In this document: positions 27,309-44,152 of the stretch, in pieces | Position numbering within the stretch: the stretch's first letter is position 1 | How the letters are laid out: every line of letters starts with the position of its first letter | Assembly: GCA_017309115.1 (NCBI GenBank) | Contig: JAFLEF010000060.1 | Location: 1 to 44,152, forward strand | Reading direction: 5' to 3' | DNA from: Verrucomicrobiota bacterium | GTDB lineage: Bacteria; Verrucomicrobiota; Verrucomicrobiia; Limisphaerales; UBA9464 | DNA: 44,152 nt | The notes under the pieces: model-generated | Seen by the model: the letters and a program-made list of their open reading frames with translations, nothing else | Told to the model about the DNA's origin: nothing | Databases searched by the model: none | Program-made: the position numbers and the translations under genes

Positions 27309-27350
27309 GAGTTGAGGAACGCGAGACCGTCAGGGTTTCCGAAAACTTCC

Positions 27351-30300
27351 ATGCGTGACTGGATCAGACTGGGTCGGTGGGCGTTGGGAATGGTTTTGGG
27401 GACCCTGAACTGGGCGGGCTCAGCGGCGGACGGATTCCGGAGCACGCCGCTGGTTCTGCCGACGGAAGGTCAGGCGGGCTTTGTAACGCGGACTCCGGAA
27501 GAGACTGGAGTCCGGTTTATCAATCGGCTGGGAGTGGAGCGGTCGCTGACCAATCACATTCTGCTCAATGGTTCGGGCGTGGCCCTCGGGGACGTGGATG
27601 GGGATGGTCGAACTGATCTGTTTCTGGCCGGATTGGAAGGCGGCAGTGCCTTCTATCGAAATCTGGGCGGGTGGAAGTTTGCCGAGCAAACCGCCTCGGC
27701 GTTTGCGGAGGCGGATCAACTGCGGCGATTGGATGCCACCGGTGCGGTCTTGGCCGACGTGGAGGGTGATGGTGATTTGGATCTGTTGCTGAATTCGGTC
27801 GGTGGCGGAACCCAATGCTGGCGGAACGACGGCACCGGGAAGTTTCGCAACGTCACGTCAGAATCCGGTCTCGCCAGCCGGTCGGGGGCGAGTTCCCTGG
27901 CCTTGGCGGATGTGGACGGCGACGGGGATCTGGATCTGTACCAGGTGAATTACCGGACCTCGACGATTCGGGATGAGTTTCAGCAGCGCTTTGAAATCAA
28001 GCCGGTGAACGGCCGTCCCACCGTGGTGGCGGTGAATGGCCGATCCGCTCAGGAGCCGGATTTGGTGGGTCGGTTTTCGTTGGATGAAAACGGGCGAATC
28101 ACCGAGCACGGCGAGGCGGATGTGTTGTACCGCAATCTGGGCGGCGGGCGCTTCGAAGCGGTGTCCTGGACCGGTGGAACGTTTCGAAATGAAGCGGGTC
28201 AACCGTTGAGTTCCCCGCCGTATGACTGGGGCTTGGCGGCGCAGTTCCGGGATTTGAACGGCGACCGGGCCCCGGATTTGTACGTGTGCAACGATCTGGG
28301 TTCGCCGGATCGAATCTGGCTGAACGATGGTCAGGGCGGCTTTCGGGCACTGCCGCGAACCTCGGTACGCAAGACCAGTTGGTTTTCGATGGGCGTTGAT
28401 TTCGGCGATCTGAATCGCGACGGCTGGGATGACTTTGTCGTGACCGACATGTTGAGTCGGGATCCGGTGCAACGTCAGGTCGAAGCGGCGGCGCGGGGAG
28501 CGGATGCTGAGGATTTCTTGGGAAGCGAAGCCCGGCCCCAAAACGCCCGGAACACGGTGTTCCTGGGCTTGGGCGGAACATTGTTCTCGGAGGTCGCCTG
28601 GGCCGCGGGCCTGGAGGCGTCGGACTGGTCGTGGTCGCCGGTTCTGTTGGATGTAGATCTCGATGGCTGGGAGGATTTGCTGATCTCCACCGGTTTTGAG
28701 CGAAACGTACAGGACGTGGACGTCGCGGACGAGATCGAGCGAATACGGCAGCGGGACAAACTTCCCGACGCGGCGGCGCTGCAATTGCGGAAGCGGTTTC
28801 CGTCCCTGGCTCAGCCCAACTTGGCCTTTCGAAATTTGGGTCAGGTGAAGTTCCAAGAGGTGAGTCGGGCCTGGGGATTTGACCGGGTGAGCATCGCCCA
28901 GGGAATGGCTCTAGCCGATTTGGATCAGGATGGGGATTTGGACGTGGTGCTGAACGAGCTGAATGGTCCGGCGCAGTTGCTGGAGAACCGGACGACGGCG
29001 GCGCGGCTGGAAGTTCGCCTGCGCGGGCGAGCCCCGAACGCTCAGGGCATTGGCGCCCGGCTGACGATTTCCGGCGGACCGGTGCGCCAGACTCAGGAGG
29101 TCATTTCAGGCGGCCGCTATGCTTCCGGTGATGATCCGGTCCGAGTGTTCGCCGCAGGAACGACCACCAATCGGCTGACCGTGGAGGTGGTTTGGCGCAG
29201 CGGTCGGCGATCGGTGGTCGCGGACATCGTACCGAATCAGAGAATTGAAATCGCCGAACCCGATTCCGAGCCCGAGTCGGTGAAGTCCGGGGAGTCAGCC
29301 CCGCTGTTTTCCGATGTTAGCGATCGCTTGCGTCACCGGCATCGGGATCAGTTTTTTGACGATGTGACCCGGCCTCCTTGGCTTCCCCGTTCCCTGGCGT
29401 ATTTGGGGCCGGCCGTGTGTTGGGGTGACTTAAACGGGGACGGAGCGGACGACTTGGTGATTGGAAGTGGCCGGGGAGGACGTCTAGCGGCGTTTTTGAA
29501 TGACGGTCGGGGCGGTTTTCTGGCGGACGAACGGCCCGTCTGGGAACGGCCGGCGGCGCTCGATAACGGCGGTGTTCTGATTTTCCCCAAGGGGACCAAT
29601 CGGCCGGATGTCCTGGTGAGTTTCAGCAACTACGAAGCGCCAAAAGCCCTGGGCGGCGTCCGGGTGATTGATCTGACGTTGGGAGCGATGCGCTTGGGTG
29701 GGCCTTCGTTGCCCGCCGCGATTGGACCCTTGGCCCTGGGGGATGTGGATGGTGATGGAACTCCGGAGCTGTTCGTGGGCGGACGGGTCGGGCCGGGGAC
29801 TTATCCGGAGTCGGCGCCGTCGGCGTTGTTCCGCAGAACCGAGGACGGTTGGGCGAAAGACGAAACGAATTCGGCGGCCTGGGGGAAGCTGGGATTGGCG
29901 ACGGCGGCGGTCTTTACGGACCTGGATGGGAATGGCCAATCCGATCTGGTGGTGGCGACTGAGTGGGGTGCCTTGCGAACGTACTTCAACCAGGGGGGAA
30001 GACTCGAGGAGCGCGATTGGGCACTGGAATGGTCCGAACCCGGGCGTCCGGCCCGGCTGAGTGAGCTGACGGGGTGGTGGCAGGGCGTGGCGTCGGTGGA
30101 TCTGGATGGGGATGGTCGGCTCGATTTGGTGGCAGCCAACTGGGGTTCCAATAGTCGATACCGGTCCGGTGACGTGCGCTTGTACGCGGCGGATTTGGAC
30201 ACGAACGGGGTGGTGGAGTTACTCGAGACGGTTCCCCAAGGGGGCCGGGAATGGCCGCAAACATCGTGGGCCCGACTGGCGGAGATTTGGCCGGCGTTGC

Positions 30301-31037
30301 GCGAGCGTTTCCCGACCCGGCGGTCCTTTGGTCAAGCTACGGTCGCAGAACTCTTGGGTCAGCCGGGTCGGGGGGTGCGATCTTGGCGGGCGGCGACGCT
30401 GGAGTCGGTGGCTTTATTGAATCGGGGAGACCGCTGGTTGGTCCGGCCATTACCGGCCGAAGCCCAGCGGGCGCCGGCCTTTGGGGTGGCGGTGGCGGAT
30501 TTTGACGGGGACGGTGCGGAGGACGTGGTGCTGAGCCAAAACTTCTTTGGTTCCCAGCCTGAGACCGACCGGGACGACGCAGGTTGGGGCTTGTTTCTTA
30601 GGGGGGACGGTCGGGGCGGATTCACGGCCTGGACTCCCGGAGATTCGGGAATTCTGGCGCCCGGGGAGCAGCGAGGGTCGGCGGTGGCGGATTTTGATCA
30701 GGACGGGCGTCCGGATTTGGTCATTACCCAGAATCGGGAATCGACCCAGTTGTATCGGAATGCGGGCGGTCGGCCAGGCTTGCGGGTCCGGTTGGAGGGG
30801 GTGGGCGGTAATCCGACGGGTCTGGGAGTTCAGGTACGGGCAGTTTTTGGAGCGGAGCGAATGGGCCCAGTGCGGGAGATTCAGGCCGGCTCCGGCTATT
30901 GGTCGCAGAACAGTCCGGTGGTGGTTTTGGCGGCTCCCGAGCCGGTCACCTCATTGTGGGTCCGTTGGCCGGGCCAGGCGGGAATCCAGATACCGGTCGA
31001 GGTCGGAGCCAAAGAAGTTCGGGTGCGGCTTCCGTAG
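27351..31037 (+). CDS. Secreted VCBS/FG-GAP repeat protein with two ASPIC/UnbV domains (copy A, CRTAC1-like)
   Basis: This 1,228-aa protein has a signal peptide (RLGRW n-region, then a hydrophobic stretch, cleavage near GSA-AD). The body is a run of calcium-binding FG-GAP/VCBS blades with D-x-D-G-D-G-x-x-D loops ('GDVDGDGRTD', 'ADVDGDGDLD', 'ADLDQDGDLD'), a first UnbV/ASPIC domain at about 551-636 ('GIGARLTISGG'), a second set of blades (about 680-1130), and a second UnbV domain at about 1141-1228. This is the architecture of CRTAC1-like proteins doubled. The N-terminal half has type-1 features, with a long loop at about 208-254. It is the most diverged of the four paralogues. ATG at 27351 is preferred over TTG at 27312 because it gives a clean signal peptide. 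A surface or secreted binding role is inferred; no enzyme motif is seen. Confidence 0.85.
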   Translation: MRDWIRLGRWALGMVLGTLNWAGSAADGFRSTPLVLPTEGQAGFVTRTPEETGVRFINRLGVERSLTNHILLNGSGVALGDVDGDGRTDLFLAGLEGGSAFYRNLGGWKFAEQTASAFAEADQLRRLDATGAVLADVEGDGDLDLLLNSVGGGTQCWRNDGTGKFRNVTSESGLASRSGASSLALADVDGDGDLDLYQVNYRTSTIRDEFQQRFEIKPVNGRPTVVAVNGRSAQEPDLVGRFSLDENGRITEHGEADVLYRNLGGGRFEAVSWTGGTFRNEAGQPLSSPPYDWGLAAQFRDLNGDRAPDLYVCNDLGSPDRIWLNDGQGGFRALPRTSVRKTSWFSMGVDFGDLNRDGWDDFVVTDMLSRDPVQRQVEAAARGADAEDFLGSEARPQNARNTVFLGLGGTLFSEVAWAAGLEASDWSWSPVLLDVDLDGWEDLLISTGFERNVQDVDVADEIERIRQRDKLPDAAALQLRKRFPSLAQPNLAFRNLGQVKFQEVSRAWGFDRVSIAQGMALADLDQDGDLDVVLNELNGPAQLLENRTTAARLEVRLRGRAPNAQGIGARLTISGGPVRQTQEVISGGRYASGDDPVRVFAAGTTTNRLTVEVVWRSGRRSVVADIVPNQRIEIAEPDSEPESVKSGESAPLFSDVSDRLRHRHRDQFFDDVTRPPWLPRSLAYLGPAVCWGDLNGDGADDLVIGSGRGGRLAAFLNDGRGGFLADERPVWERPAALDNGGVLIFPKGTNRPDVLVSFSNYEAPKALGGVRVIDLTLGAMRLGGPSLPAAIGPLALGDVDGDGTPELFVGGRVGPGTYPESAPSALFRRTEDGWAKDETNSAAWGKLGLATAAVFTDLDGNGQSDLVVATEWGALRTYFNQGGRLEERDWALEWSEPGRPARLSELTGWWQGVASVDLDGDGRLDLVAANWGSNSRYRSGDVRLYAADLDTNGVVELLETVPQGGREWPQTSWARLAEIWPALRERFPTRRSFGQATVAELLGQPGRGVRSWRAATLESVALLNRGDRWLVRPLPAEAQRAPAFGVAVADFDGDGAEDVVLSQNFFGSQPETDRDDAGWGLFLRGDGRGGFTAWTPGDSGILAPGEQRGSAVADFDQDGRPDLVITQNRESTQLYRNAGGRPGLRVRLEGVGGNPTGLGVQVRAVFGAERMGPVREIQAGSGYWSQNSPVVVLAAPEPVTSLWVRWPGQAGIQIPVEVGAKEVRVRLP

Positions 31038-31276: not shown

Positions 31277-34200
31277 ATGAAATTCCATCGAACAATACTA
31301 CCTGCCGCAGTCGCGGCCATGGCAGTTCAGATGGTCTCCGCGCAGGAGATCACTCCGAAGTGGTATCAACACATCAACGGAAGCTTTGGCGTCGCCGAAG
31401 CTGACAAGTTGCCGATCCTGAAAAAGGCCGGCCAACCGGGGACGATCAACCTCAATGGCACCGACTTGATGGACGCCTACAGCCAGTTGATTCGCTATGA
31501 TGCGACTCGCCTGCTGTTGGGTATCCGCGAAAACGGTATCAATGAAGGCGACGCCAACAATTCCGCCGAAACGAAGGCGCTGGCGGCGGCTTATCCGGAT
31601 CGGTCGCTGATCTGGCTCGACGCGGCCACGGGCAAGCCCTTGGGTATCGCATGGAAGGAATCTCTGACCCCGACTAGCGACATCGGAATCGATGTCACGG
31701 CGGAGGGGCAGGGAAGCCAGAGCAACAACAACAATGCTTGGTGGCGGGTGGCCCTAGACGAGGGTCCTGAAGGTCAGCGGGCGCTGTATTCCCACTTCAA
31801 GCACATTGTCCTGCGCTATGCTCCGAAGGTGGGCGGCGGCTGGGAAACCACCCCGACGGTGGTTTATGAAGAACAAGTCCGCGGCGTGGGCGACGGCCTG
31901 AGCAACGGCGACGGCTTCAACAGCTGGCGCTACCGTGACTTCAAGGTTCGCGGTTCCGGTGTCAACACCGTGATCTACGTCGGCGGCGGCACTTGGCGCG
32001 CGGGTCATCATCCGCAAGTCCTCGTGACGACGGACGGAATGAACTTCAAGCCGAAGGGCCGCGTAGATAACCGTGACAACGGTGCCCGCCGTAATGATTA
32101 CGCCCTGGGTGGTCTCTCCTCCTTCCCGGTGGAGTACCCCAACAACTACGGTGGCGATTCGAGCCAGAAGATCTCGGTCGTGTACGCCGGTCACTTCCCG
32201 GGCACCGGTTGGCCGGCCCGTCCGAACCGCTACACCTCGAATCCCCTTAATCCGTTCCCGACGCCTGCCTACAACGCGCAGCCCGATGTGGCTCTGTACG
32301 TTCGCAACGAGACCGCCTTCGGTGGTCTCCCGGCGTTCAACTGGGAAGCGGCCGGCAAAGACGGACTGCCCATCGACAATGCCGTCGACGGCGTGACCCG
32401 TTACGACGGTAACTGGAACGTCGGTATGGAGACGGATCCTTCGCTGGAATACATCGTCTCCTTCTCCTCTCCGTCTTGGAACAACCAGTTCCCCGACGTG
32501 AATGGCGAGAACGTGCGTAAACCCGGTTGGTTGGCCATCCATCGTCTCGACGGTTCCATCGCCAGCGGCAACAGCGCGTTGAAGATGGACTTCGTGGAAA
32601 ATGACGAAGTTTATGCGCCAGACACCAACACCGCGGAAACCGGTCATGACTACCTCTATGATCCTGGAATCCAGGTGATTCCGGACACCACGGCCGCCGC
32701 GAACCTCGACAAGTCGGAAGTGCTCATCGCGATGGGTTCGGCTGGCTTCGGTGTGTTCACGGTGCAGAACGTGGGTGCGACGATCGTCTCCAATCCGATC
32801 AACCAGACGGTGGCGGCTGGTACGGACGTGACCATCACGGCCAACGTGACGGGCAGCCCGAACGACTTCCAATGGTACCTCGACGGACAGCCGCTGCCGG
32901 CTAAGTCCTACTACTTGGGCACCACCAAGAAGTCGACCCTCAAGATCCCGGCGGTCACCACGGCCGACGCGGGCACCTACCAGTTGAAGTGGACCAACCC
33001 GATTACGGGTGCGGGCCAGACGACCGAAGCGACCTTGACCGTCACGGGTAACGCCGTCCGGTTGACCGCCGCTCAGATCGTTCCGGAGAATCCTCTCCCG
33101 GTGACCATCCCGAATGGCTCCGTGGTGGCGACGGGTGAGAATGCGTTCACGGTCTCCGGACCTGGCCTTATCGCCTTCCCGTCCGCCTCGAACGCGGATC
33201 AACCTGGCGACGTCCAGGAGTTTGCCTATGAGTCCATCACGGGTGACTTCGACATCTCGGTCAAGTTGACCGGTTTGACCAGCGGACCCGTCACCGACCC
33301 GATCGATGCCAATGCCGGCGCCGGTCTGACGGCCCGGGTGAGCACCGCGGCGCTGAGCCCGTCGTTCAACCTGAACGTTTCCAACCCGCTGGGTGCGAAC
33401 CAAGTCCTGGTGAATGGCCGGGCGATCGAAGGTCAGAACTACACGGTGTTCAGCCGGACTTATCCGGGCGTCGTGGACGTCCTGCCGAATCAATGGCTGC
33501 GTATCCGCCGCGTGGGTGACTACTTCGCCGCCTACGTCGGAACCAACGGAACCACCTGGTCGCTGATCGGTCAGCGCTATCAGCAATGGCCGGCAACCCT
33601 CCTCGTGGGTGCTTACGCCTTCTCGGCGAGCTACATCACGGTGGACGGAACCCCGACCGGTGGGACGAACCTCGCCACGGCGACGTTCACCAACTACGGC
33701 CCGACCCCGATCACCGACACCACTGCCCCGACCCTCGTGTCCGTGGGTACGACCGACAAGGCCACCGTGGGTGTGAAGTTCTCGGAACCCGTGGCTTCTG
33801 CCTCGGCCGTTCTGCCGATCAACTACAAGCTCAGCCAGGGTAACGTGACCGCTGTTCGTATGGGCATCGGTGGCGACACGGTTTATCTGACCGTCACTGG
33901 TCTGACCTCCGACACCTTCACGGTGACGGTTCTGGGCGGCGTGACCGACACGGCCGGCAACTCGATTGCTGCCAACTCGATGGCCTCCGGCAAGTGGTCC
34001 AACTGGGCCTCCTCTGACATCGGTCTGATCCAAGATCCGGCTGTTCGTCCGACTCCGGGTGATGATCCGGGCCGGGTGGGTCAGGCGGTTGCCGTTTCTT
34101 CCGGCGACACCGAAACCGAAGTTGAAATCGTCGGTGGTGGTTCGAACGCCTGGAATCCGGGCGACTTCCTGCACTATCTCAACAAGCCGACTCCGATCAC

Positions 34201-35011
34201 CGGTGACTTCGACGTCATGGTGGAAGTCAGCCGTAACGACCGTCCGGCGAACACCGCTGGTTGGGCGAACTCGGGTCTGATGCTCCGCGAGTCGGTTTAC
34301 CTCCCGGGTCAAGACGGCACGGTCGATGGCACCAAGGTCGCCATGGTCGCCAACACGACCTACCTCGAAAACTCTGGACCGAACCGCGCGGCGATTCCGC
34401 TGTGGCGTGAAGAGCCCGGAGCCGGCTACGGCAACGGCAACGCCGGGTTCAACTGGTTCAACAATGAAATCGACGGCATCCGTGGTTACTACCTCGACTT
34501 GAACGCGGTAGACGCTGCTGGTACCAAGGATCCTGAGTCTTCCGACCTCTCGGCTCGCTGGCTGCGGATCCAACGCGTTGGCAACATCTTCAGCTTCTAC
34601 GCCTCCTACAACGGTAAGGTTTGGGAGAAGTATGCGGATGACAAGGAACTGCCCCTCGCGAGCAACCTGCTGTTCGGGTTCTCGACGATGAACGACACGG
34701 GTTCGAATCCTCCTCCGGGAAATGCCTATGCTGGCAACGGCATGGTGGGCACGGACTGGGAAGGTAACCAGAATCCGTCGAACTACTCCGTCCAACGCAT
34801 CCGTATCGGCACGAACGTGTCGCCGCGGTTCCCGGTGGTCACCCCGACCATCTCCATCACCACCACCCCGCTGGGTGTCGTGATCACCTACTCCGGCACC
34901 CTGTACTCCTCCGATACCCTCGGCGGAAACTACACTCCGGTCGCGGGCGCCACGAGCCCCTACCCGGTGCCGGCTGGAACGACGCAGAAGTTCTTCCGCG
35001 CTATGAATTAA
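31277..35011 (+). CDS. Large secreted Ig-like/LamG-like multidomain protein
   Basis: This 1,244-aa protein has a signal peptide (MKFHRT n-region, cleavage near VSA-QE at 22-23). The first 500 residues have no family I can name but show repeated strand-turn units ('VIYVGGGTWRAGHHPQVLVT'). Then come an I-set Ig-like domain (about 503-592, with 'FQWYLDGQPLP' and 'DAGTYQLKW'), a LamG/DUF1349-like sandwich (about 633-808), a Big_5/SbsA-like domain (about 813-906, 'VGVKFSEPVASAS'), a second LamG/DUF1349-like sandwich (about 913-1178), and a 60-residue C-terminal unit ending 'QKFFRAMN'. Codon use differs from its neighbours: strong C/T-ending, GGT/GGC and AAG preference and few G-runs, as in highly expressed genes. 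A strong terminator follows. Abundant secreted or surface protein; ligand unknown. Confidence 0.85.
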   Translation: MKFHRTILPAAVAAMAVQMVSAQEITPKWYQHINGSFGVAEADKLPILKKAGQPGTINLNGTDLMDAYSQLIRYDATRLLLGIRENGINEGDANNSAETKALAAAYPDRSLIWLDAATGKPLGIAWKESLTPTSDIGIDVTAEGQGSQSNNNNAWWRVALDEGPEGQRALYSHFKHIVLRYAPKVGGGWETTPTVVYEEQVRGVGDGLSNGDGFNSWRYRDFKVRGSGVNTVIYVGGGTWRAGHHPQVLVTTDGMNFKPKGRVDNRDNGARRNDYALGGLSSFPVEYPNNYGGDSSQKISVVYAGHFPGTGWPARPNRYTSNPLNPFPTPAYNAQPDVALYVRNETAFGGLPAFNWEAAGKDGLPIDNAVDGVTRYDGNWNVGMETDPSLEYIVSFSSPSWNNQFPDVNGENVRKPGWLAIHRLDGSIASGNSALKMDFVENDEVYAPDTNTAETGHDYLYDPGIQVIPDTTAAANLDKSEVLIAMGSAGFGVFTVQNVGATIVSNPINQTVAAGTDVTITANVTGSPNDFQWYLDGQPLPAKSYYLGTTKKSTLKIPAVTTADAGTYQLKWTNPITGAGQTTEATLTVTGNAVRLTAAQIVPENPLPVTIPNGSVVATGENAFTVSGPGLIAFPSASNADQPGDVQEFAYESITGDFDISVKLTGLTSGPVTDPIDANAGAGLTARVSTAALSPSFNLNVSNPLGANQVLVNGRAIEGQNYTVFSRTYPGVVDVLPNQWLRIRRVGDYFAAYVGTNGTTWSLIGQRYQQWPATLLVGAYAFSASYITVDGTPTGGTNLATATFTNYGPTPITDTTAPTLVSVGTTDKATVGVKFSEPVASASAVLPINYKLSQGNVTAVRMGIGGDTVYLTVTGLTSDTFTVTVLGGVTDTAGNSIAANSMASGKWSNWASSDIGLIQDPAVRPTPGDDPGRVGQAVAVSSGDTETEVEIVGGGSNAWNPGDFLHYLNKPTPITGDFDVMVEVSRNDRPANTAGWANSGLMLRESVYLPGQDGTVDGTKVAMVANTTYLENSGPNRAAIPLWREEPGAGYGNGNAGFNWFNNEIDGIRGYYLDLNAVDAAGTKDPESSDLSARWLRIQRVGNIFSFYASYNGKVWEKYADDKELPLASNLLFGFSTMNDTGSNPPPGNAYAGNGMVGTDWEGNQNPSNYSVQRIRIGTNVSPRFPVVTPTISITTTPLGVVITYSGTLYSSDTLGGNYTPVAGATSPYPVPAGTTQKFFRAMN

Positions 35012-35030: not shown

Positions 35031-35066
35031 GGGGTCGGTCTTCGGACCGGCCCCTTTTTGTTTTTT
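35031..35066 (+). terminator. Strong intrinsic terminator with UUCG tetraloop
   Basis: A 10-bp stem (GGGGTCGGTC at 35031-35040 with GACCGGCCCC at 35045-35054, one G-T pair) closes a TTCG loop and is followed by TTTTTGTTTTTT (35055-35066). It lies 20 bases after the stop of the Ig/LamG-like gene and separates that gene from the next VCBS gene. Confidence 0.93.
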
Positions 35067-35175
35067 GAGGGTCAATCCGGGCTCGCGATTGAACTCACTC
35101 TTCGAATCAGTACGCTCCGGCAGCCACCGCGGTCGAATTCCGTTCCATGTTGTCCGCGGCCGGGCAGTTCCCCTG

Positions 35176-38100
35176 GTGAGCATTCGTCCCGTCCATCTAA
35201 AGCGTTGCGTGGGTTGGGCCGTCGCCGTGGGAATCGGTCTTCACCTCGCCGGAGGGATTCAGGGACTGGCGGCCGACGTTTCCGGAAGTGGCCGAGCGTT
35301 GGTCGTCCGGGCCGGTAAGGCGGGCTTCGTGCCCGTTCCCGCTCAGGATTCCAGGATCACCTTCGCCAATCGCGTGACGCCCCAGGAGATCGCCACCAAT
35401 CGACTATTGGAGGACGGCTCCGGAGTCGCCCTGGGTGACATCGATGGAGACGGGTGGTGCGATGTCTACTTCTGCAGTCTGGCCGGGCAGAACCGGCTGT
35501 ACCGGAACCTTGGCAACTGGACGTTTGAGGACCTCACAGCCCAAGCCGGAGTGGCCTGCCCGGGACAATCATCCACCGGCGCAGTTCTAGCCGATGTGGA
35601 CGGAGATCGGGATTTGGATCTCTTCGTGAATTCCCTCGGGGGAGGTACCCGCCTGTTTCGAAATGAGGGTTCCCAGCGTTTCAGCGAAGTGACGGATTCC
35701 GGCCTAGCTCGTCGTTACGGCAGCCATTCACTGGCTTTGGGAGATGTCGACGGGGACGGGGACCTCGACCTGTACGTGGCCAATTACCGCGCCACCACCG
35801 CCAAGGACTCGCCCGTGAAGGTCAAGGTGCGGCAGGTGGCCGGAGTGTGGGAGGTTCCCCCGGAACATCGGGAACAGTTTCGGGTCGATGTCAGTGGAGG
35901 GGCGGTGGCTCTGTTGGAGGTCGGGGAACCGGATCAGTTGTACCTGAATGACGGCCAGGGCCGTTTTACCGCAGTGTCGTGGACCTCGGGTCAGTTCCTC
36001 GACGAACAGGGTAAGCCGCTGACCGCGCCGCCGCGCGATTGGGGGTTGTCCGTGATGATTCGCGACCTGAATCAGGATGGGCTGCCGGACATTTACGTGT
36101 GCAACGATTACTTCACGCCCGACCGGGTCTGGATCAATCAGGGCCGGGCCGTGTTCCGACTGCTGTCCCCATTGGCCCTGCGGCAGACCAGTTGGGCGGC
36201 GATGGCGGTGGATGTCGCTGATATCAACCGGGACGGTTGGGATGATATTTTCGTCAGTGAAATGCTCAGCCGCGACCCGGTTCGGCGCCAGACCCAGACC
36301 AGTTTGCGGGAGGTGGCTCCGCTTCCGTCCTATGGGTGGGGCTGGCTTCCGGGGGACATCGAGCGAACGACTCAGGTCATGCGGAATACGCTGGCGCTGA
36401 ATCGAGGGGATGGAACCTATGCCGAGATCGGTCAATTGAGTGGGATTCATGCTTCGGAGTGGACGTGGGGCTGTCTCTTTCTGGATGTTGATCTCGACGG
36501 CTATGAAGATCTGCTGATTGCCAATGGGCACTCCCGGGACCTGGCCAATTCCGATTCCCTAGCGGCCATGGATCGTCTGCCCCCGGCCACGGATGCCGCC
36601 GCCCGGCTCAAGTCGCTCCATCTGTTCGGCCCCTTGCCCTTGCCGCATCTGGCGTTCCGTAACCGGGGGGATCTGACTTTTGCCGACGTGAGCCAAGACT
36701 GGGGCTTTAACCGGGTGGGTGTGGCTAACGGCATGGCCGAGGGGGATCTGGACAACGATGGGGATCTGGACGTGGTGCTGAACAACTTAAACGAGGAGGC
36801 GGTACTATTGCGCAATGAGGGCGGGGGAAGTCGGGTGGCGGTGAGATTGGTGGGGAGTGGGGGGAACACGCGGGGGATTGGAGCGCGAGTGACGTTGAAG
36901 GGTGGACCGGTGGAACAGGCGCAGGAGATCCTGAGCGGAGGACGATATTTGTCGGGCGGGGAAGCGCTGCGGGTGTTTGCGGCGGGCGGGGGAACGAACC
37001 TGAGCCTAGAGGTGAAGTGGCGGAGCGGAAAGGTGAGTGGGGTGGGGGGAGTGCCGGGAAACCGGTTGTACGAAATCGAGGAGTCGGGAGCCGAAGCGGT
37101 GACTGCGGTAAAACCACCCGAAGTGAAGCCCTTGTTGGTGGAGGTGAGTGAACGGTTGGGCCTAACAGTGGTGGACGAGGCGTACGATGACTTTGGGCGG
37201 CAACCGCTGTTGCCCCGGCGGCTCAGCAGCGAAGGTCCAGGAGTGAGCTGGGGAGATCTCAATGGAGACGGCGTGGAAGACCTGCTGGTGGGCAGTGGTC
37301 GCGGCGGCCGACTGCGAGTGCTGGGCGGGAACGGCCGGGGCGGTTTTGGAGAGGTGAAGGCGGCGGCGTGGAGTGGAGTGGTGACGGAGGATCAGACGGG
37401 GATCGTGAACTGGTCGGTGGAAGCCGGGACGAGCACGATTCTGGTGGGTCAATCGAACTACGAAACAGGCCGAACCGGCGCCGCGGTGAAGAGCTACGGG
37501 ATCTTTCTGGGAGACGTGCAAACCGGACCGGAACTGCCCGGCTGGGAGGCGAGCGTGGGACCGCTGGTGGTGGCGGATATGGACGGGGACGGGGATTTGG
37601 ACGTGTTCGTGGGCGGTCGAGTGGAGGCGGGGAAGTATCCGAAGTCGACGAGTTCCAAGATTTGGCGGCAGGAAGGCGGTCAATGGGTGCCGGATGAACG
37701 GAGCAATCAACTGCTGCGCGGGGTGGGGTTGGTGAGCGGCGCGGTGTGGACAGATCTGAACGGCGACGGCCTACCGGAACTGGTGCTGGCCCGGGAATGG
37801 GACAGTCTGAAGATCTACGGAAACCGGAGCGGTCAACTCCAGGACGACAGCGAGGCGTGGGGTGTGAGCCAAGCGAAAGGTCTGTGGACCGGTGTGACGG
37901 CGGGGGATCTGAACGGAGACGGGCGCCTGGATTTGGTGGTTGGGAACTGGGGTCGGAATAGCGGATACGAAGGCCGAGTGGAACCCAGTGTGTGGCATGG
38001 GGACGTGGATGGGAACGGGACGTGGGAAGTGGTGGAGAGTTACCGGGAAGGCGACCGGGAAGTGCCGCGCCGGGACTGGCGAACGGTGGGTCAGGCGGTG

Positions 38101-38865
38101 CCGGAAGTGGCGGGCCGGTTCACGAGTTACCGCAGCTACGGCGAAGCGAGTTTGGAACAGATTTACGGGGATGGTTTGAAACGCTTGGAACGGCGGACAG
38201 TGAACACGCTGGACTCAACGGTGTGGTGGAACCGGGGAACGCGGCTGGAGGGACAGGCACTGCCATTGGAAGCGCAGGTGTCGCCCGTGTTCGGAGTGAA
38301 CGTGGGGGATGTGGACGGCGACGGCCGGGAGGACGTGTGGCTGAGTCAGAACTTTTTCGGAGTGGATCGGGAGACGGGCCGAATGGATGCCGGCCGGGGC
38401 GTGTGGCTCCAAGGCCAAGGCGGAGAAAAACTGCGGGCTCTGAGCGGAGCGGAAAGCGGTGTGACGATCTACGGGGAATGCAGAGGTTCGGCGCTGGCGG
38501 ACTTTGATGGGGACGGCCGGGTGGACTTGGTGGTGGCGCAGAATGGCGGCCCGGTTCGGTTGTATCGGAATCAGGGGGCGAAAGCGGGCTTGCGGGTACG
38601 CCTGTTGGGCCTGCCCGGGAATGGCAACGCGATTGGGGCGGTGGTGCGGTTGGGGACGAAGGATCAGCCGGGACCGGCGCGGGAGATCCATGGTGGCTCG
38701 GGTTGGTGGTCGCAGGACAGTGCAGTGAGCGTGCTGGCGTGGCCCAGTGGCTCGGCCGAGTTGCAGGTGCGCTGGCCGGGCGGCCAGACCACCACGCATG
38801 CCGTCCCGGCCCAAGCTCGGGAAGTCCGCGTTAGTCCCAATGGGTCCCTGGAGGTGGTGCCGTGA
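35176..38865 (+). CDS. Secreted VCBS/FG-GAP repeat protein with two ASPIC/UnbV domains (copy B)
   Basis: This 1,229-aa protein has the doubled CRTAC1-like layout: signal peptide (HLKR n-region, cleavage near GLA-AD), FG-GAP/VCBS blades ('GDIDGDGWCD', 'GDVDGDGDLD', 'GDLDNDGDLD'), a UnbV domain at about 551-637 ('GIGARVTLKGG'), a second set of blades, and a final UnbV domain at about 1135-1229. GTG at 35176 is the likely start; an earlier in-frame TTG (35065) lies in the terminator. From 36751 to the stop the DNA is almost identical to copy C at a constant offset of 3,650 bases, while the N-terminal half is clearly different. Type-2 N-terminal half. The stop overlaps the GTG of copy C. Confidence 0.85.
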   Translation: MSIRPVHLKRCVGWAVAVGIGLHLAGGIQGLAADVSGSGRALVVRAGKAGFVPVPAQDSRITFANRVTPQEIATNRLLEDGSGVALGDIDGDGWCDVYFCSLAGQNRLYRNLGNWTFEDLTAQAGVACPGQSSTGAVLADVDGDRDLDLFVNSLGGGTRLFRNEGSQRFSEVTDSGLARRYGSHSLALGDVDGDGDLDLYVANYRATTAKDSPVKVKVRQVAGVWEVPPEHREQFRVDVSGGAVALLEVGEPDQLYLNDGQGRFTAVSWTSGQFLDEQGKPLTAPPRDWGLSVMIRDLNQDGLPDIYVCNDYFTPDRVWINQGRAVFRLLSPLALRQTSWAAMAVDVADINRDGWDDIFVSEMLSRDPVRRQTQTSLREVAPLPSYGWGWLPGDIERTTQVMRNTLALNRGDGTYAEIGQLSGIHASEWTWGCLFLDVDLDGYEDLLIANGHSRDLANSDSLAAMDRLPPATDAAARLKSLHLFGPLPLPHLAFRNRGDLTFADVSQDWGFNRVGVANGMAEGDLDNDGDLDVVLNNLNEEAVLLRNEGGGSRVAVRLVGSGGNTRGIGARVTLKGGPVEQAQEILSGGRYLSGGEALRVFAAGGGTNLSLEVKWRSGKVSGVGGVPGNRLYEIEESGAEAVTAVKPPEVKPLLVEVSERLGLTVVDEAYDDFGRQPLLPRRLSSEGPGVSWGDLNGDGVEDLLVGSGRGGRLRVLGGNGRGGFGEVKAAAWSGVVTEDQTGIVNWSVEAGTSTILVGQSNYETGRTGAAVKSYGIFLGDVQTGPELPGWEASVGPLVVADMDGDGDLDVFVGGRVEAGKYPKSTSSKIWRQEGGQWVPDERSNQLLRGVGLVSGAVWTDLNGDGLPELVLAREWDSLKIYGNRSGQLQDDSEAWGVSQAKGLWTGVTAGDLNGDGRLDLVVGNWGRNSGYEGRVEPSVWHGDVDGNGTWEVVESYREGDREVPRRDWRTVGQAVPEVAGRFTSYRSYGEASLEQIYGDGLKRLERRTVNTLDSTVWWNRGTRLEGQALPLEAQVSPVFGVNVGDVDGDGREDVWLSQNFFGVDRETGRMDAGRGVWLQGQGGEKLRALSGAESGVTIYGECRGSALADFDGDGRVDLVVAQNGGPVRLYRNQGAKAGLRVRLLGLPGNGNAIGAVVRLGTKDQPGPAREIHGGSGWWSQDSAVSVLAWPSGSAELQVRWPGGQTTTHAVPAQAREVRVSPNGSLEVVP
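38850..38855 (+). promoter_or_regulatory. Shine-Dalgarno GGAGGT for copy C, inside the end of copy B
   Basis: GGAGGT is six bases before the GTG at 38862 and is made of codons for the last residues of copy B (L-E-V). It fixes the GTG as the start of copy C and supports translational coupling. The same arrangement recurs at 42500-42505 before copy D. Confidence 0.8.
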
Positions 38866-41800
38866 CGTACCGATGGCTGCTATTCCTGCTGCTCTTGACC
38901 GTAGGTCGCGCGGCCGAGTTGTCCTGGCAGAGCCAACCGGGCTATCGCGTGGCGTACCTGACGGTGACCCCGGGCGCTCCGGGCTTTCGCCGCTTGGATT
39001 CGGCGGCCACCGGAGTTCGGTTTACGAATCAATTGTCCGAAGACGCGGTGGCCAAGAACCACATTCTCGACAATGGCTCAGGCGTGGCGTTGGGAGACTT
39101 CGACGGGGATGGCTGGTGCGATGTGTATTTCTGCCGCTTGGAAGGTCCCAATGCGCTCTTTCGCAATCGGGGGAACTGGACGTTTGAGGAGATTGCCGCG
39201 CCGGCCGGAGTGACCTGTGCGGATCAGTTGTCCACCGGAGCGGTCTTTGCGGATGTCGAGGGCGATGGCGATCTGGATTTGTTGGTGAATTCCCTGGGCG
39301 GCGGAACTCGGTTGTTTCTGAACAAGGGGGATCGCCAGTTTGAAGAGGCTTCTGATTCCGGTCTGGCCAATCGGCGAGGCAGCCATTCGTTCGCGCTCGC
39401 GGACGTGGATGGCGACGGCGATCTGGATGTCTATGTGACCAACTACCGTTCCACGAGCTTCAAGGGCCTGCCTGAGTCGGCGAAGATCCGATTGCGCAAT
39501 GTGAACGGCCAGTTGGTGGTGCCCCCGGATCAGGTCGATCAATTCCAACTGGCCCGGACGCCCGAAGGCACCGCGTTGCTGGAAATTGGTGAGCCGGATG
39601 CGCTGTTCTTGAATCAGGGGCAGGGTCGCTTTGTGCCAGAGTCCTGGACCCAGGGACGCTTTCGGGATGAACAGGGTCAGCCTCTCACTGGGCCGCCGCG
39701 GGATTGGGGCCTTTCTGCACAATTCCGGGATATCAATCGGGATGGCGCTCCGGACCTCTACGTGTGCAATGACTTCTTCTCGCCCGATCGGATCTGGCTG
39801 AATGATGGTCGGGGTCAGTTCCGGGCTCTTCCCCGGATGGCGTTGCGCCAGACCTCATTTGCCTCCATGGCGGTGGACTTCGGAGATTTGGATCGCGATG
39901 GTCAGGATGACTTCTTTGTCGCTGACATGCTCTCGCGGAGCCATCGCCAGCGGCAAGTTCAGCGGAGCAACTTTGAACTCACGCCGGTGCCCTGGTGGGG
40001 TTGGCCTTCCGATCGGGAAGGTCCGGAGAGCCGACCTCAGACCTTGCATAACACGCTGTTCTGGAATCGGGGCGATGGCACGTTCGCTGAAGTCTCGCAC
40101 TGGGGCAGAGTAGCCGCTTCGGAATGGACCTGGGGTGCGGTGTTTCTGGATACGGATCTGGACGGGTACGAGGATCTCCTGATTGCCAATGGGCATGGAC
40201 ATGACCTGACGGATTCCGACGCGCTGCAACTGCAGGCCGAGCGCTCCCGTGCCGGGCAATCAGTCCGCGGCATTTTTCCCCGCTTGCGCACGGCGAACCT
40301 GGCGTATCGGAACGAAGGCGGGCTGAAGTTCCGGGAAGTGGGGAAGGAATGGGGATTTGGGGTGGAAGGCGTGACGCAGGGGATGGCTGAAGGAGACCTG
40401 GACAACGACGGGGATCTGGACGTGGTGCTGAACAACTTAAACGAGGAGGCGGTGGTCCTGCGCAATGAAGGCGGGGGAAGTCGGGTGGCGGTGAGATTGG
40501 TGGGGAGTGGGGGGAATACGCGGGGGATTGGAGCGCGGGTGACATTGAAAGGTGGAGCCGTGGAACAGGCGCAGGAGATCCTGAGTGGTGGTCGATATCT
40601 GTCGGGAGGAGAAGCGCTGCGGGTGTTTGCGGCGGGCGGGGGAACGAACCTGAGCCTGGAAGTGAAGTGGCGGAGCGGGAAGGTGAGCGTGGTGCGGGGA
40701 GTGCAGGGAAACCGGCTGTACGAAATCAGTGAGTCGGGAGCCGAAGCGGTGCCTGCGGTAAAACCACCCGAAGTGAAGCCCTTGTTGGTGGAGGTGAGTG
40801 AACGGTTAGGCCTAACGTCGGTGGACGAGGCGTACGATGACTTTGGACGGCAACCGCTGTTGCCCCGGCGGCTCAGCAGCGAAGGTCCGGGAGTGAGCTG
40901 GGGGGATCTCAATGGGGACGGCGTGGAAGACCTGCTGGTGGGCAGTGGCCGGGGCGGCCGACTGCGAGTGCTGGGCGGGAACGGCCGGGGCGGTTTTGGA
41001 GAGGTGAAGGCGGCGGCGTGGAGTGGAGTGGTGACGGAGGATCAGACGGGGATCGTGAACTGGTCGGTGGAAGCCGGGACGAGCACGATTCTGGTGGGTC
41101 AATCGAACTACGAAACAGGCCGAACCGGCGCCGCGGTGAAGAGCTATGGGATCTTTCTGGGGGACGTGCAAACCGGACCGGAACTGCCGGGCTGGGAAGC
41201 GAGCGTGGGACCGGTGGTGGTGGCGGATATGGACGGGGACGGGGATCTGGACGTGTTCGTGGGCGGTCGGGTGGAGGCGGGGAAGTATCCGAAGTCGACG
41301 AGTTCCAAGATTTGGCGGCAGGAAGGCGGTCAATGGGCACCGGACGAACGGAGCAATCAGCTATTGCGCGGGTTGGGACTGGTCAGCAGCGCCGTGTGGA
41401 CGGATCTGAACGGCGACGGCCTTCCGGAACTGGTGCTGGCCCGGGAATGGGACAGTCTGAAGATCTACGGGAACCGGAGCGGTCAACTCCAGGACGACAG
41501 CGAGGTGTGGGGCGTGAGCCAGGCGAAGGGCCTGTGGACCGGGGTGACGGCGGGGGATCTGAACGGCGACGGGCGCCTGGATTTGGTGGTGGGGAACTGG
41601 GGTCGGAACACGGTTTACGAAGGCCGGGTGGAACCCAGTGTGTGGCATGGGGACGTGGATGGGAACGGGACGTGGGAGGTGGTGGAGAGTTACCGGGAAG
41701 GGGACCGGGAAGTGCCGCGTCGGGACTGGCGAACGGTGGGCCAGGCGGTGCCGGAAGTGGCGGGTCGGTTCACGAGTTACCGCAGCTACGGCGAAGCGAG

Positions 41801-42515
41801 TTTGGAACAGATTTACGGGGACGGCTTGAAACGCTTGGAACGGCGGACAGTGAACACGCTGGACTCAACGGTGTGGTGGAACCGGGGAACCCGACTGGAG
41901 GGACAGGCACTGCCATTGGAAGCGCAGGTATCGCCCGTGTTCGGAGTGAACGTGGGAGATGTGGACGGCGACGGCCGGGAGGACGTGTGGCTGAGTCAGA
42001 ACTTTTTCGGAGTGGATCGGGAGACGGGTCGAATGGATGCCGGCCGGGGGGTGTGGCTCCAAGGCCAAGGCGGAGAAAAACTGCGGGCCCTGAGCGGAGC
42101 GGAAAGCGGCGTGAAGATCTACGGGGAAGGCCGAGGTTCGGCGCTGGCGGACTTTGATGGGGACGGACGGGTGGACTTGGTGGTGGCGCAGAATGGCGGC
42201 CCCGTTCGGTTGTATCGGAATCAGGGGGCGAAGACGGGCTTGCGGGTACGCCTGTTGGGCCTGCCCGGGAATGGCAACGCGATCGGAGCGGTGGTGCGGT
42301 TGGGGACAAAGAACCAGCCGGGACCGGCGCGGGAGATCCATGGTGGCTCCGGTTGGTGGTCGCAGGACAGTGCGGTGAGCGTGCTGGCGTGGCCCAGTGG
42401 CTCGGCCGAGTTGCAGGTGCGCTGGCCCGGCGGCCAGACCACTACGCATGCCGTCCCGGCCCAAGCCCGGGAAGTCCGCGTTAGTCCCAATGGGTCCCTG
42501 GAGGTGGTGCCGTGA
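38862..42515 (+). CDS. Secreted VCBS/FG-GAP repeat protein with two ASPIC/UnbV domains (copy C)
   Basis: This 1,217-aa protein has a signal peptide ('YRWLLFLLLLTVGRA', cleavage near GRA-AE), a type-2 N-terminal set of blades ('GDFDGDGWCD', 'ADVDGDGDLD', with 'LLEIGEPDALFLN' near residues 240-252), a UnbV domain at about 539-625, a second set of blades and a final UnbV domain. GTG start overlaps the copy B stop (GTGA), with a good ribosome binding site. Its last 2,115 bases are nearly identical to those of copy B, and its first about 125 bases and the stretch from 40288 onward are nearly identical to copy D. The homogenised 3' half has a distinct, very G-rich codon style (GGG, GCG, GTG) unlike its own 5' half. 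Confidence 0.88.
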   Translation: MTYRWLLFLLLLTVGRAAELSWQSQPGYRVAYLTVTPGAPGFRRLDSAATGVRFTNQLSEDAVAKNHILDNGSGVALGDFDGDGWCDVYFCRLEGPNALFRNRGNWTFEEIAAPAGVTCADQLSTGAVFADVEGDGDLDLLVNSLGGGTRLFLNKGDRQFEEASDSGLANRRGSHSFALADVDGDGDLDVYVTNYRSTSFKGLPESAKIRLRNVNGQLVVPPDQVDQFQLARTPEGTALLEIGEPDALFLNQGQGRFVPESWTQGRFRDEQGQPLTGPPRDWGLSAQFRDINRDGAPDLYVCNDFFSPDRIWLNDGRGQFRALPRMALRQTSFASMAVDFGDLDRDGQDDFFVADMLSRSHRQRQVQRSNFELTPVPWWGWPSDREGPESRPQTLHNTLFWNRGDGTFAEVSHWGRVAASEWTWGAVFLDTDLDGYEDLLIANGHGHDLTDSDALQLQAERSRAGQSVRGIFPRLRTANLAYRNEGGLKFREVGKEWGFGVEGVTQGMAEGDLDNDGDLDVVLNNLNEEAVVLRNEGGGSRVAVRLVGSGGNTRGIGARVTLKGGAVEQAQEILSGGRYLSGGEALRVFAAGGGTNLSLEVKWRSGKVSVVRGVQGNRLYEISESGAEAVPAVKPPEVKPLLVEVSERLGLTSVDEAYDDFGRQPLLPRRLSSEGPGVSWGDLNGDGVEDLLVGSGRGGRLRVLGGNGRGGFGEVKAAAWSGVVTEDQTGIVNWSVEAGTSTILVGQSNYETGRTGAAVKSYGIFLGDVQTGPELPGWEASVGPVVVADMDGDGDLDVFVGGRVEAGKYPKSTSSKIWRQEGGQWAPDERSNQLLRGLGLVSSAVWTDLNGDGLPELVLAREWDSLKIYGNRSGQLQDDSEVWGVSQAKGLWTGVTAGDLNGDGRLDLVVGNWGRNTVYEGRVEPSVWHGDVDGNGTWEVVESYREGDREVPRRDWRTVGQAVPEVAGRFTSYRSYGEASLEQIYGDGLKRLERRTVNTLDSTVWWNRGTRLEGQALPLEAQVSPVFGVNVGDVDGDGREDVWLSQNFFGVDRETGRMDAGRGVWLQGQGGEKLRALSGAESGVKIYGEGRGSALADFDGDGRVDLVVAQNGGPVRLYRNQGAKTGLRVRLLGLPGNGNAIGAVVRLGTKNQPGPAREIHGGSGWWSQDSAVSVLAWPSGSAELQVRWPGGQTTTHAVPAQAREVRVSPNGSLEVVP
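42500..42505 (+). promoter_or_regulatory. Shine-Dalgarno GGAGGT for copy D, inside the end of copy C
   Basis: Identical to the site before copy C: GGAGGT, six-base spacer, GTG at 42512 overlapping the TGA of copy C. It supports a polycistronic B-C-D unit. Confidence 0.8.
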
Positions 42516-44152
42516 AGTACCGATGGCTGCTATTCCTGCTGCTCTTGACCGTAGGTCGCGCGGCCGAGTTGTCCTGGCAGAGCCAACCAGGCTATCGCGT
42601 GGCGAACCTGACCGTGACCCCGGGCGCTCCGGGCTTTCGCCGAATGGATTCGGCCGCCACCGGGGTTCGTTTCACGAATACGCTGGGAATGGCACTGTCG
42701 TTGACCAACACGCCGGTCAACAACGGATCGGGCTTGGCGTTGGGAGACTTCGATGGGGACGGCTGGTGCGATGTGTATTTCTGCCGCTTGGAAGGGCCCA
42801 ATGCGCTCTATCGCAATCTGGGGAACTGGACGTTTGAAGAGATCGCCGGGGCTGCAGGAGTCGCCTGTGCGGATCAGTTGTCCACCGGGGCGGTCTTTGC
42901 GGATATTGAAGGCGATGGCGACCTGGATTTGCTGGTGAATTCCTTGGGCGGGGGAACTCGGCTCTTTCTGAATGAAGGGAATCGTCGGTTTCGGGAGTCC
43001 ACGGAGGCCGGCTTGATCTCTCGATTCGGCAGCACGTCGTTGGCCTTGGCGGATGTGGATGGCGACGGGGATTTGGATCTGTACGTCGTGAACTATCGGA
43101 CGAGCACGATCCTGGATCAGCCCCAGACCCGTTTCAGCGTGGCCATGATTCAGGGGCGTCCGGTGTTAACCCGGGTGAATGGGGTGCCGGCGACTTCACC
43201 AGAAATGGTCGATCGCTTCACTTTGGGACCGGACGGATCGCCTCGGGAAGCGGGGGAAGCGGATGTGTTCTACCTAAATGAAGGCGGCGGTAAGTTTCGG
43301 CCCGCGTCGTTCGCGGAACGGTTCCAGGACGATGCCGGCAAACCTGCTTCGCCGCCGCTGGACTGGGGTCTCGCGGTGATGTTTCGCGATTTGAATCAGG
43401 ACGGCGCCCCGGACTTGTATGTCTGCAACGATACCGATTCGCCGGATCGAATTTGGATGAACGACGGCACGGGGCATTTCCAGGCGCTGTCTCCGTTGGC
43501 CCTGAGGCACACCAGCCTTTCCTCCATGGGACTCGATGTCGCGGACTTCAATCGCGACGGCTGGGATGATCTGTTCGTCGTGGACATGCTGGGCCGGCGG
43601 CACCTGGATCGCATGACCCAGTTGGAGAAGGCGCGGGTCGAACAAGGCCGTAGCGAACGCGAACGGCTCCAATTCCCGCACAACACGCTGTTCCTGAATC
43701 GGGGTGACGGGACCTACACCGAAGTGGCCCAGATGATGGGGTTGGCGGCGACGGATTGGTCCTGGACTCCACTGTTTCTGGATGTGGATTTGGATGGGTT
43801 CGAGGATGTCCTGATCGCCAACGGATTTCACCGCAACGTTCTCGACAGCGATGCGGCACTGAAAATCAACCAGGCCAAGACGGGACGGAAATTGACTCCG
43901 GCCGAGGAGTTGGATTTGCGGCGGCTCTTTCCCGACTGGCGCACGGCGAACCTGGCGTATCGGAACGAAGGCGGGCTGAAGTTCCGGGAAGTGGGGAAGG
44001 AATGGGGATTTGGGGTGGAGGGCGTGACGCAGGGGATGGCTGAAGGAGACCTGGACAACGACGGGGATCTGGACGTGGTGCTGAACAACTTAAACGAGGA
44101 GGCGGTGGTCCTGCGCAATGAGGGCGGGGGAAGTCGGGTGGCGGTGAGACTG
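42512..44152 (+). CDS. Secreted VCBS/FG-GAP repeat protein with ASPIC/UnbV domain (copy D), cut by the window end
   Basis: The reading frame is open for 547 codons from GTG at 42512 to the last base, so only the N-terminal half is present. It has the same signal peptide as copy C apart from one residue, blades with 'GDFDGDGWCD', 'ADIEGDGDLD', 'ADVDGDGDLD' and 'GDLDNDGDLD', and enters the first UnbV domain at the end of the window. The middle (about residues 199-475) is of the type-1 kind found in copy A ('VNGVPATSPEMVDRF', 'GEADVFYLN', a helix ending 'LDLRRLFPDW'). From 43941 on, the DNA is nearly identical to copy C from 40288. It is thus a hybrid between the two N-terminal types and the shared tail. 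Confidence 0.87.
   Translation, partial: MKYRWLLFLLLLTVGRAAELSWQSQPGYRVANLTVTPGAPGFRRMDSAATGVRFTNTLGMALSLTNTPVNNGSGLALGDFDGDGWCDVYFCRLEGPNALYRNLGNWTFEEIAGAAGVACADQLSTGAVFADIEGDGDLDLLVNSLGGGTRLFLNEGNRRFRESTEAGLISRFGSTSLALADVDGDGDLDLYVVNYRTSTILDQPQTRFSVAMIQGRPVLTRVNGVPATSPEMVDRFTLGPDGSPREAGEADVFYLNEGGGKFRPASFAERFQDDAGKPASPPLDWGLAVMFRDLNQDGAPDLYVCNDTDSPDRIWMNDGTGHFQALSPLALRHTSLSSMGLDVADFNRDGWDDLFVVDMLGRRHLDRMTQLEKARVEQGRSERERLQFPHNTLFLNRGDGTYTEVAQMMGLAATDWSWTPLFLDVDLDGFEDVLIANGFHRNVLDSDAALKINQAKTGRKLTPAEELDLRRLFPDWRTANLAYRNEGGLKFREVGKEWGFGVEGVTQGMAEGDLDNDGDLDVVLNNLNEEAVVLRNEGGGSRVAVRL

Follow-up and report, generated by a model that had tools for sequence, protein, structure and literature searches.

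Bacterial proteins with FG-GAP and UnbV domains are described in PMC3192720 as integrin-type propellers of seven blades, sometimes present in two tandem copies. The same domains, which are also those of human CRTAC1, are found in three consecutive genes, here named B, C and D, that close a stretch of 44,152 nucleotides from a Verrucomicrobiota bacterium (contig JAFLEF010000060.1 of assembly GCA_017309115.1, positions 1 to 44,152); gene C has seven calcium-type motifs per half. This stretch, hereafter the window, is the entire contig C69 of its source genome (7.53 Mb in 111 contigs). We call the N-terminal part of each protein its head and the C-terminal part its tail; G000 designates the window's own genome, and the other G numbers designate other genomes. 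We show that the tail is homogenised while the heads have diverged, that the breakpoints between the two recur, and that the phylogenies of heads and tails are opposed. Searches of the open-licence PubMed Central (PMC) literature listed no paper recognisable as describing such homogenised tails among FG-GAP/UnbV proteins.

Concerted evolution itself is already known; here the homogenisation stops inside the protein. In the mammalian CEACAM receptors, which have other domains and belong to other hosts than the propeller array, gene conversion is said to act on parts of receptor genes. The UGT1 clusters possess one shared set of exons, which is spliced. These clusters of variable first exons (PMC1885805) likewise set differing N-terminal parts on one constant C-terminal part; unlike UGT1, each gene of the array owns its tail, which is kept alike by recombination. 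A prokaryote-wide survey of concerted evolution treats it gene by gene, and the terms 'partial' and 'N-terminal' are absent from its main text (PMC6053082). Compared with the long-lasting concerted evolution of prokaryotes that this survey describes, homogenisation concerns here the C-terminal part only, with a recurrent internal boundary, and in proteins of the secreted type.

The reading that we favour, with a probability of about 0.82, is a long-lasting concerted evolution of the C-terminal part by intragenomic gene conversion, the N-terminal propellers being anciently diverged orthologous types. The homogenised part begins within the protein, at nearly the same site for each of the two arrays and in several genera, so that heads behave like normal orthologs and tails like a set that spans the genome. 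Such an array is a natural test of the limits of gene conversion, and of the existence of a common partner for the shared C-terminal half.

A shared tail behind divergent heads

The array comprises the following features:

35065..38865, plus strand: gene B, with a B-type head and the shared tail; TTG start as listed, the start codon being uncertain.
35299..36747, plus strand: head of B, clustering with the heads of G001:C64, G060:C69, G013:C166 and G062:C206.
36748..38865, plus strand: tail of B, with the last motif of propeller 1, UnbV1, propeller 2 and UnbV2; 94.9% identical to the tail of C.
38862..42515, plus strand: gene C, with a GTG start and a 4-base overlap with B.
38862..38990, plus strand: start block of C, 97% identical to D, spanning an apparent signal peptide (by eye); a weaker likeness continues to about residue 180.
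40286..42515, plus strand: stretch of C common with D, up to the assembled end of D; the part homogenised between B and C begins at 40398.
42512..44152, plus strand: gene D, with a D-type head (grouping with G013:C350, G060:C308 and G009:C115); the contig ends 102 bases into the tail shared with B.
43939..44152, plus strand: start of the shared tail in D, 98.6% identical to C over 214 bases; it probably goes on in contig C9 (L009:5293-7215, minus strand).

The tails of B (36751-38865) and C (40401-42515) align without a gap at an offset of 3650 and differ at 108 of 2115 bases, the block also taking in the 4 bases that overlap the following gene. Their synonymous divergence (dS) is 0.18 and their non-synonymous divergence (dN) 0.015; with a dN/dS of about 0.08, the tail is under purifying selection. 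In the heads of the same two genes the proportion of synonymous differences (pS) reaches 0.73, and dS is about 2.8, near saturation. Two-rate fits place the switch at residue 513 for B/C and B/D (36748/40398 for B/C; twice the log-likelihood difference, 2dlnL, of 612) and at residue 475 for C/D (40286/43939; 2dlnL 148). Strings of differences show identity changing within a few bases at the B/C and C/D edges, and the edges surround the seventh motif of the head propeller. C and D are also 97% identical over their first 129 bases, after which dS is about 0.5 (residues 27-180) and then approaches saturation, while the last 214 assembled bases of D are 98.6% identical to C.

A sequence-only reading of the window had anticipated much of this pattern, which is confirmed and extends further than that reading saw. 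The constant offset that it reported between B and C stands, gap-free and carried through the overlap, even if 'almost base for base' is somewhat strong for 94.9%. It had also proposed that C and D share their start and everything beyond a second point: both ends are borne out, but the middle is not simply diverged, as the intermediate dS over residues 27-180 makes plain. Its sharp edges are indeed sharp to the base, and dS followed along the genes, a check that it had suggested, is far from uniform (0.18 in the tail vs 2.8 in the head). That recombination keeps the tails alike is strongly upheld: dS is near saturation on one side and low on the other, breakpoints are sharp, head and tail trees clash, and five other genomes repeat the pattern. 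'Kept identical', by contrast, overstates the 94-99% found here.

Contig C9 of the same genome (L009:1-7215, 7215 bases) opens at base 193 of this tail, 93 bases past the cut end of D. It completes a family gene, followed on the same strand by an arginyl-transferase-like (ATE_C/acetyltransferase-like) gene, an Hpt protein and a hybrid histidine kinase. In a contig of the same genus (G002:C267) a tail fragment is likewise adjoined by a similar transferase gene (judged by eye), which makes C9 the probable continuation of D, with its 3' end; further copies between D and C9 are possible. Among the polymorphic sites of the tail in B, C and C9, 77 of 121 unite C with C9, and 44 of these are consecutive, against B, a length that 0 of 20000 shuffles reached (permutation p 5e-5). 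This unbroken run of 44 sites marks a recent conversion tract. As a separate observation, the likeness of the G002:C267 fragment (L126:3138-4616) to the tail of C is split between two frames (residues 731-1049 and 1047-1214), owing to a frame break or a sequence error.

Opposed histories of heads and tails

Comparison of head types among other genomes, also suggested by the sequence-only reading, recovered B-type heads in four of them (G001:C64, 74% amino acid identity; G060:C69, 71%; G013:C166, 68%; G062:C206, 64%) and D-type heads in three (G013:C350, 66%; G060:C308, 64%; G009:C115, 63%). The head of C is nearest to G062:C419 and G005:C24 (62-64%), with a weak grouping. In trees of 93-94 members, head residues 185-505 place B and C with a gene from UBA11320 (L032) and D with G013:C350, while by their tails B, C and C9 fall into a single clade beside G013:C350. 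Later trees also took in contig-end fragments. In a head tree of 47 rows, the five B-type heads, from 5 genomes, form a clade (support 100/100), and D joins G013:C350 and G060:C308 (98/93); in a head set of 16 rows the D-type clade includes G009:C115 (99/96). The tail tree, by contrast, unites B with C and C9, and gathers the fragments of G060 in one group and those of G062 in another (a frame-broken G002 row, on a very long branch, was not relied on), and in a tail-start set of 14 rows the G013 pair (98/96) and the G060 pair (97/94) cluster by genome. Approximately unbiased (AU) tests, on groups named after the first trees, reject same-genome clades in the 16-row head set (B and D heads of G000, p 5e-98; B, C and D, p 2e-5; the P and Q heads of G005 described below, p 1e-4); in the tail-start set, short at 219 columns, they reject a clade of B-type tails (p 2e-52).

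Head trees sort by type and tail-start trees mostly by genome, and identities tell the same story. In G000, G013 and G060, the B- and D-type heads of one genome have an identity of 54-56%, while the tail starts attached to them have nucleotide identities of 94% in G000 (27 codons), 100% in G013 (28 codons) and 97% in G060 (67 codons); the shared tail stretches inside one genome lie at 94-100%. Between genomes, the tails of the B/D arrays are 51-60% identical in amino acids (residues 600-1210) and the tail starts 55-85% (residues 520-600), so that the B- and D-type heads of G000, at 63-74%, are more conserved between genomes than the tails. For the tails, and for them only, paralogs within a genome are more alike than orthologs between genomes, and synonymous sites are homogenised too, as expected of concerted evolution. 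The paralogs themselves are older than the species split, since the heads form clades by type across genera.

A second array repeats the arrangement with two other head types, P and Q. The heads of G005:C277 and C210 are 53% alike, whereas from residue 473 on the two genes have 1332 bases of DNA at 95% identity (dS 0.16 in the tail vs 1.65 in the head). These heads match those of G062:C150 and C105 (61% and 62%), which have in turn a common tail start, with one difference in 151 bases and an abrupt switch. Twelve further genomes were then searched to test the idea, 22 loci from 6 genomes being compared, and G064 was found in this way. Its contig C276 carries a P-type head (68% to G062:C150), and C104 is of the Q type in residues 390-470 (76% to G062:C105); the two are 57% alike in these residues, and from about residue 476, a breakpoint read by hand, they share 163 bases in which a single position differs. 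Pairs in which two different heads meet one tail thus number eight in six genomes (three in G000, one each in G005, G013, G060, G062 and G064), with breakpoints at residues 473-513: 507-513 in the B/D genomes (G000, G013, G060), and 473-478 in the P/Q genomes (G005, G062, G064) and, at 475, between C and D of the window. Upstream of the C210 head of G005 (L180:1-314) one also finds the tail end of a prior copy, 97% identical over 314 bases to the tail end of C242 (L211:4628-4941), which implies at least two such tails in G005, perhaps three.

The within-genome comparison used windows of 25 codons at an identity of at least 92%, over 394 pairs drawn from 157 genes or fragments of 35 genomes, a subset of the family genes of those genomes. 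It gave seven two-headed pairs with a sharp switch, G064 being added later, and the tail was always the common part (with, for C/D, the start block as well); a pair with constant head and variable tail was found in none of the 394. Near-identity on the head side was restricted to the C/D start block and to two exact end overlaps that sit in the head and were not counted (G013 C118/C137 and G063 C170/C269). An earlier all-against-all comparison of 96 full-length and 12 partial genes had found no within-genome stretch above 81% besides those of the window, C9 and neighbour matches, the latter, at 100%, being overlaps of frames read stop to stop; the informative genes are cut by contig ends and were added afterwards.

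Several candidates were set aside. Near-identical pairs with one head (G001 C30/C79 and C12/C96; G023 C360/C136; G062 C206/C415; G053 C305/C321) fit a strain mixture equally well. Exact overlaps of 92-141 bases at contig ends look assembler-made (G063 twice, G043, G013 C137/C118, G005 C210/C242, G064 C240/C31); contig G060:C308 has one of 123 bases between its own ends. Contig ends cluster at the junction between head and tail: residues 500-599 receive 13 of 27 cuts at the 3' side and 8 of 24 at the 5' side, a tally that may be biased upward, loci having been partly picked by tail matches. That assemblies of this FG-GAP/UnbV propeller family tend to break there should serve as a warning; a repertoire of constant and variable parts, if it exists, would stay largely hidden for this reason.

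Gene conversion and its rivals

The process that we envisage would start from an old set of paralogs coding for double beta-propeller proteins. Repeated gene conversion would cover the last blade of propeller 1, UnbV1, propeller 2 and UnbV2, copying between genes taking place via homologous recombination within the genome. Tails would stay recombinable through their very likeness, and heads would have diverged past easy recombination. With less assurance, we may suppose that selection holds the heads apart, each binding a different target, and that it holds the tails alike because a common partner or surface receives every copy. Different heads might serve ligand diversification; the gene surroundings that were inspected do not decide this reading of head targets and tail partner.

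A number of observations weigh against the concerted evolution of tails. Homogenisation was seen in none of 42 same-locus pairs, from 26 loci of named records (threshold of 78% over 100 bases; one of these pairs, at L044, is made of two overlapping frames), so that adjacency alone brings no homogenisation. G009, with D- and Q-type heads, has no homogenised pair among its fetched loci, and its D-type tail falls outside the B/C/D tail clade. The 47-row head tree contains a wider D-type clade (100/100) that holds, besides G009:C115, a gene of the window's own genome (C2:109475-113251) on a long branch. In G062, the tail of the C-like C419 has mostly 50-70% nucleotide identity with that of the B-type C206 (84% in a conserved window at 495). 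A long common tail exists only in G000 (2115 bases) and G005 (1332); the common stretch measures 238 bases with 8 differences in G060, and only 124, 151 and 163 bases in G013, G062 and G064 (0, 1 and 1 differences), where exact runs of 124, 119 and 131 bases from the contig end have the size of an assembler overlap. What these three short contig-end stretches tell is that two heads meet one tail start, likeness of the whole tail being confined to G000 and G005. Finally, all pairs were judged on assembled contigs.

Conversion might also operate without any function: tails would recombine since they are still similar, heads being past the similarity limit, and the split point would be historical, with no selected design of a constant tail. 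Breakpoints that are nearly constant for each array type across genera (507-513; 473-478) are what an inherited edge would look like, and among the 10-codon windows the one at residue 510 ranks third in conservation. The window at 470, on the other hand, is no conserved DNA spot (0.49), and those at 430 and 180, more conserved, serve as no breakpoint. One edge lying in a conserved motif and the other not, local DNA similarity alone does not set the edges. The shared polarity of two array types, with not one constant head on variable tails in the 394 pairs, also goes against this account. We grant it somewhat less than an even chance; coupled with an inherited old edge, it remains strong. A more ambitious proposal, that the genes encode co-transcribed secreted receptors or binders, with varied propeller heads on one tail, recombination being confined beyond the blade boundary, selected for an interoperable tail and kept across genera, seems to us doubtful. 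The 4-base overlaps between B and C and between C and D suggest a single operon.

Heads newly replaced on recently duplicated genes would make head and tail trees clash as they do. Yet each array has its two head types side by side in three genomes (from three genera for B/D, two for P/Q), so that heads are old and tails are young within each genome, and head swapping is very unlikely. Likewise, it is highly improbable that the near-identical tails are an assembly artefact or alleles of mixed strains: the one-headed pairs of G001, G023, G062 and G053 could be strain variants, but B and C are whole in one contig, with 108 differences and a dS well above dN, and genes that differ in their heads, as in the two-headed pairs, cannot be alleles of each other.

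An antigenic cassette system relies on donor cassettes that are silent and incomplete, next to a single expressed gene, and its variable part changes fast between close relatives. Antigenic variation was evoked by the sequence-only reading; in the form of antigenic or phase variation via cassette recombination, it would account for a variable N-terminal and a constant C-terminal part. It is hardly credible here, as the genes look open rather than silent (the frames of B and C are complete and uninterrupted, and that of D stays open as far as the contig goes), the heads are orthologs conserved across genera (63-74% amino acid identity), more so than the tails, and the tail is under purifying selection. 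As for purifying selection alone, which the low dN of the tail (0.015) would suit, it is refuted by dS, synonymous sites being also alike in the tail (0.18, against 2.8 in the head), and by tails just 51-60% identical between genomes.

Domains, neighbours and distant relatives

Two further genes precede the array:

27312..31037, plus strand: gene Y, a family member with two FG-GAP propeller regions, two UnbV and a tail of its own; its start codon is uncertain.
31277..35011, plus strand: gene A, a large unrelated protein (I-set and Big_5 domains) between Y and B.

Pfam cut-offs are exceeded by FG-GAP_3, FG-GAP and UnbV_ASPIC in Y, B and C, each of which has FG-GAP repeats in its two halves and UnbV_ASPIC twice, and by FG-GAP_3 and FG-GAP only in the truncated D. 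C contains 14 DxDxDG-like motifs, seven through residue 512 and seven beyond. The closest solved structure by sequence is that of human CRTAC1 (PDB 9etn, E 7.5e-34), followed by YenB and integrin alpha propellers, and the N-termini of C and D resemble, by eye, a signal peptide. B, C and D encode large FG-GAP/UnbV proteins with a double propeller, which are probably secreted.

Gene Y belongs to the family, yet is not homogenised with B-D; its nearest heads are in G001, G002, G004, G060 and G062 (67-80%, residues 181-470). Gene A, directly upstream of B, carries Ig/Big_5 domains and falls outside the propeller family. Antisense to it runs an open frame of 1013 codons (window 31754-34795, minus strand), likely a by-product of base composition.

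Among 80 listed relatives of the tail that bear names, those at the top (up to 50%) come mainly from metagenome genomes of Verrucomicrobiota, one of them labelled Pedosphaera; below them, a larger number of weaker relatives belong for the most part to Bacteroidota. Two metagenome records titled Akkermansia muciniphila (L029, L037), a label that may be wrong, encode the family at 41-46%. Two metagenome-assembled genomes (MAGs) that carry the labels of other phyla, Caldithrix sp. (L030) and Gemmatimonadetes (L039), have tail homologs at 42-43%, with two adjoining family genes, through transfer or mis-binning. Last, just outside the start of a minus-strand family gene of G004:C392 (L131:5600-6008) lies a repeat with a spacing of 162 bases, 98% identical over 247 bases.

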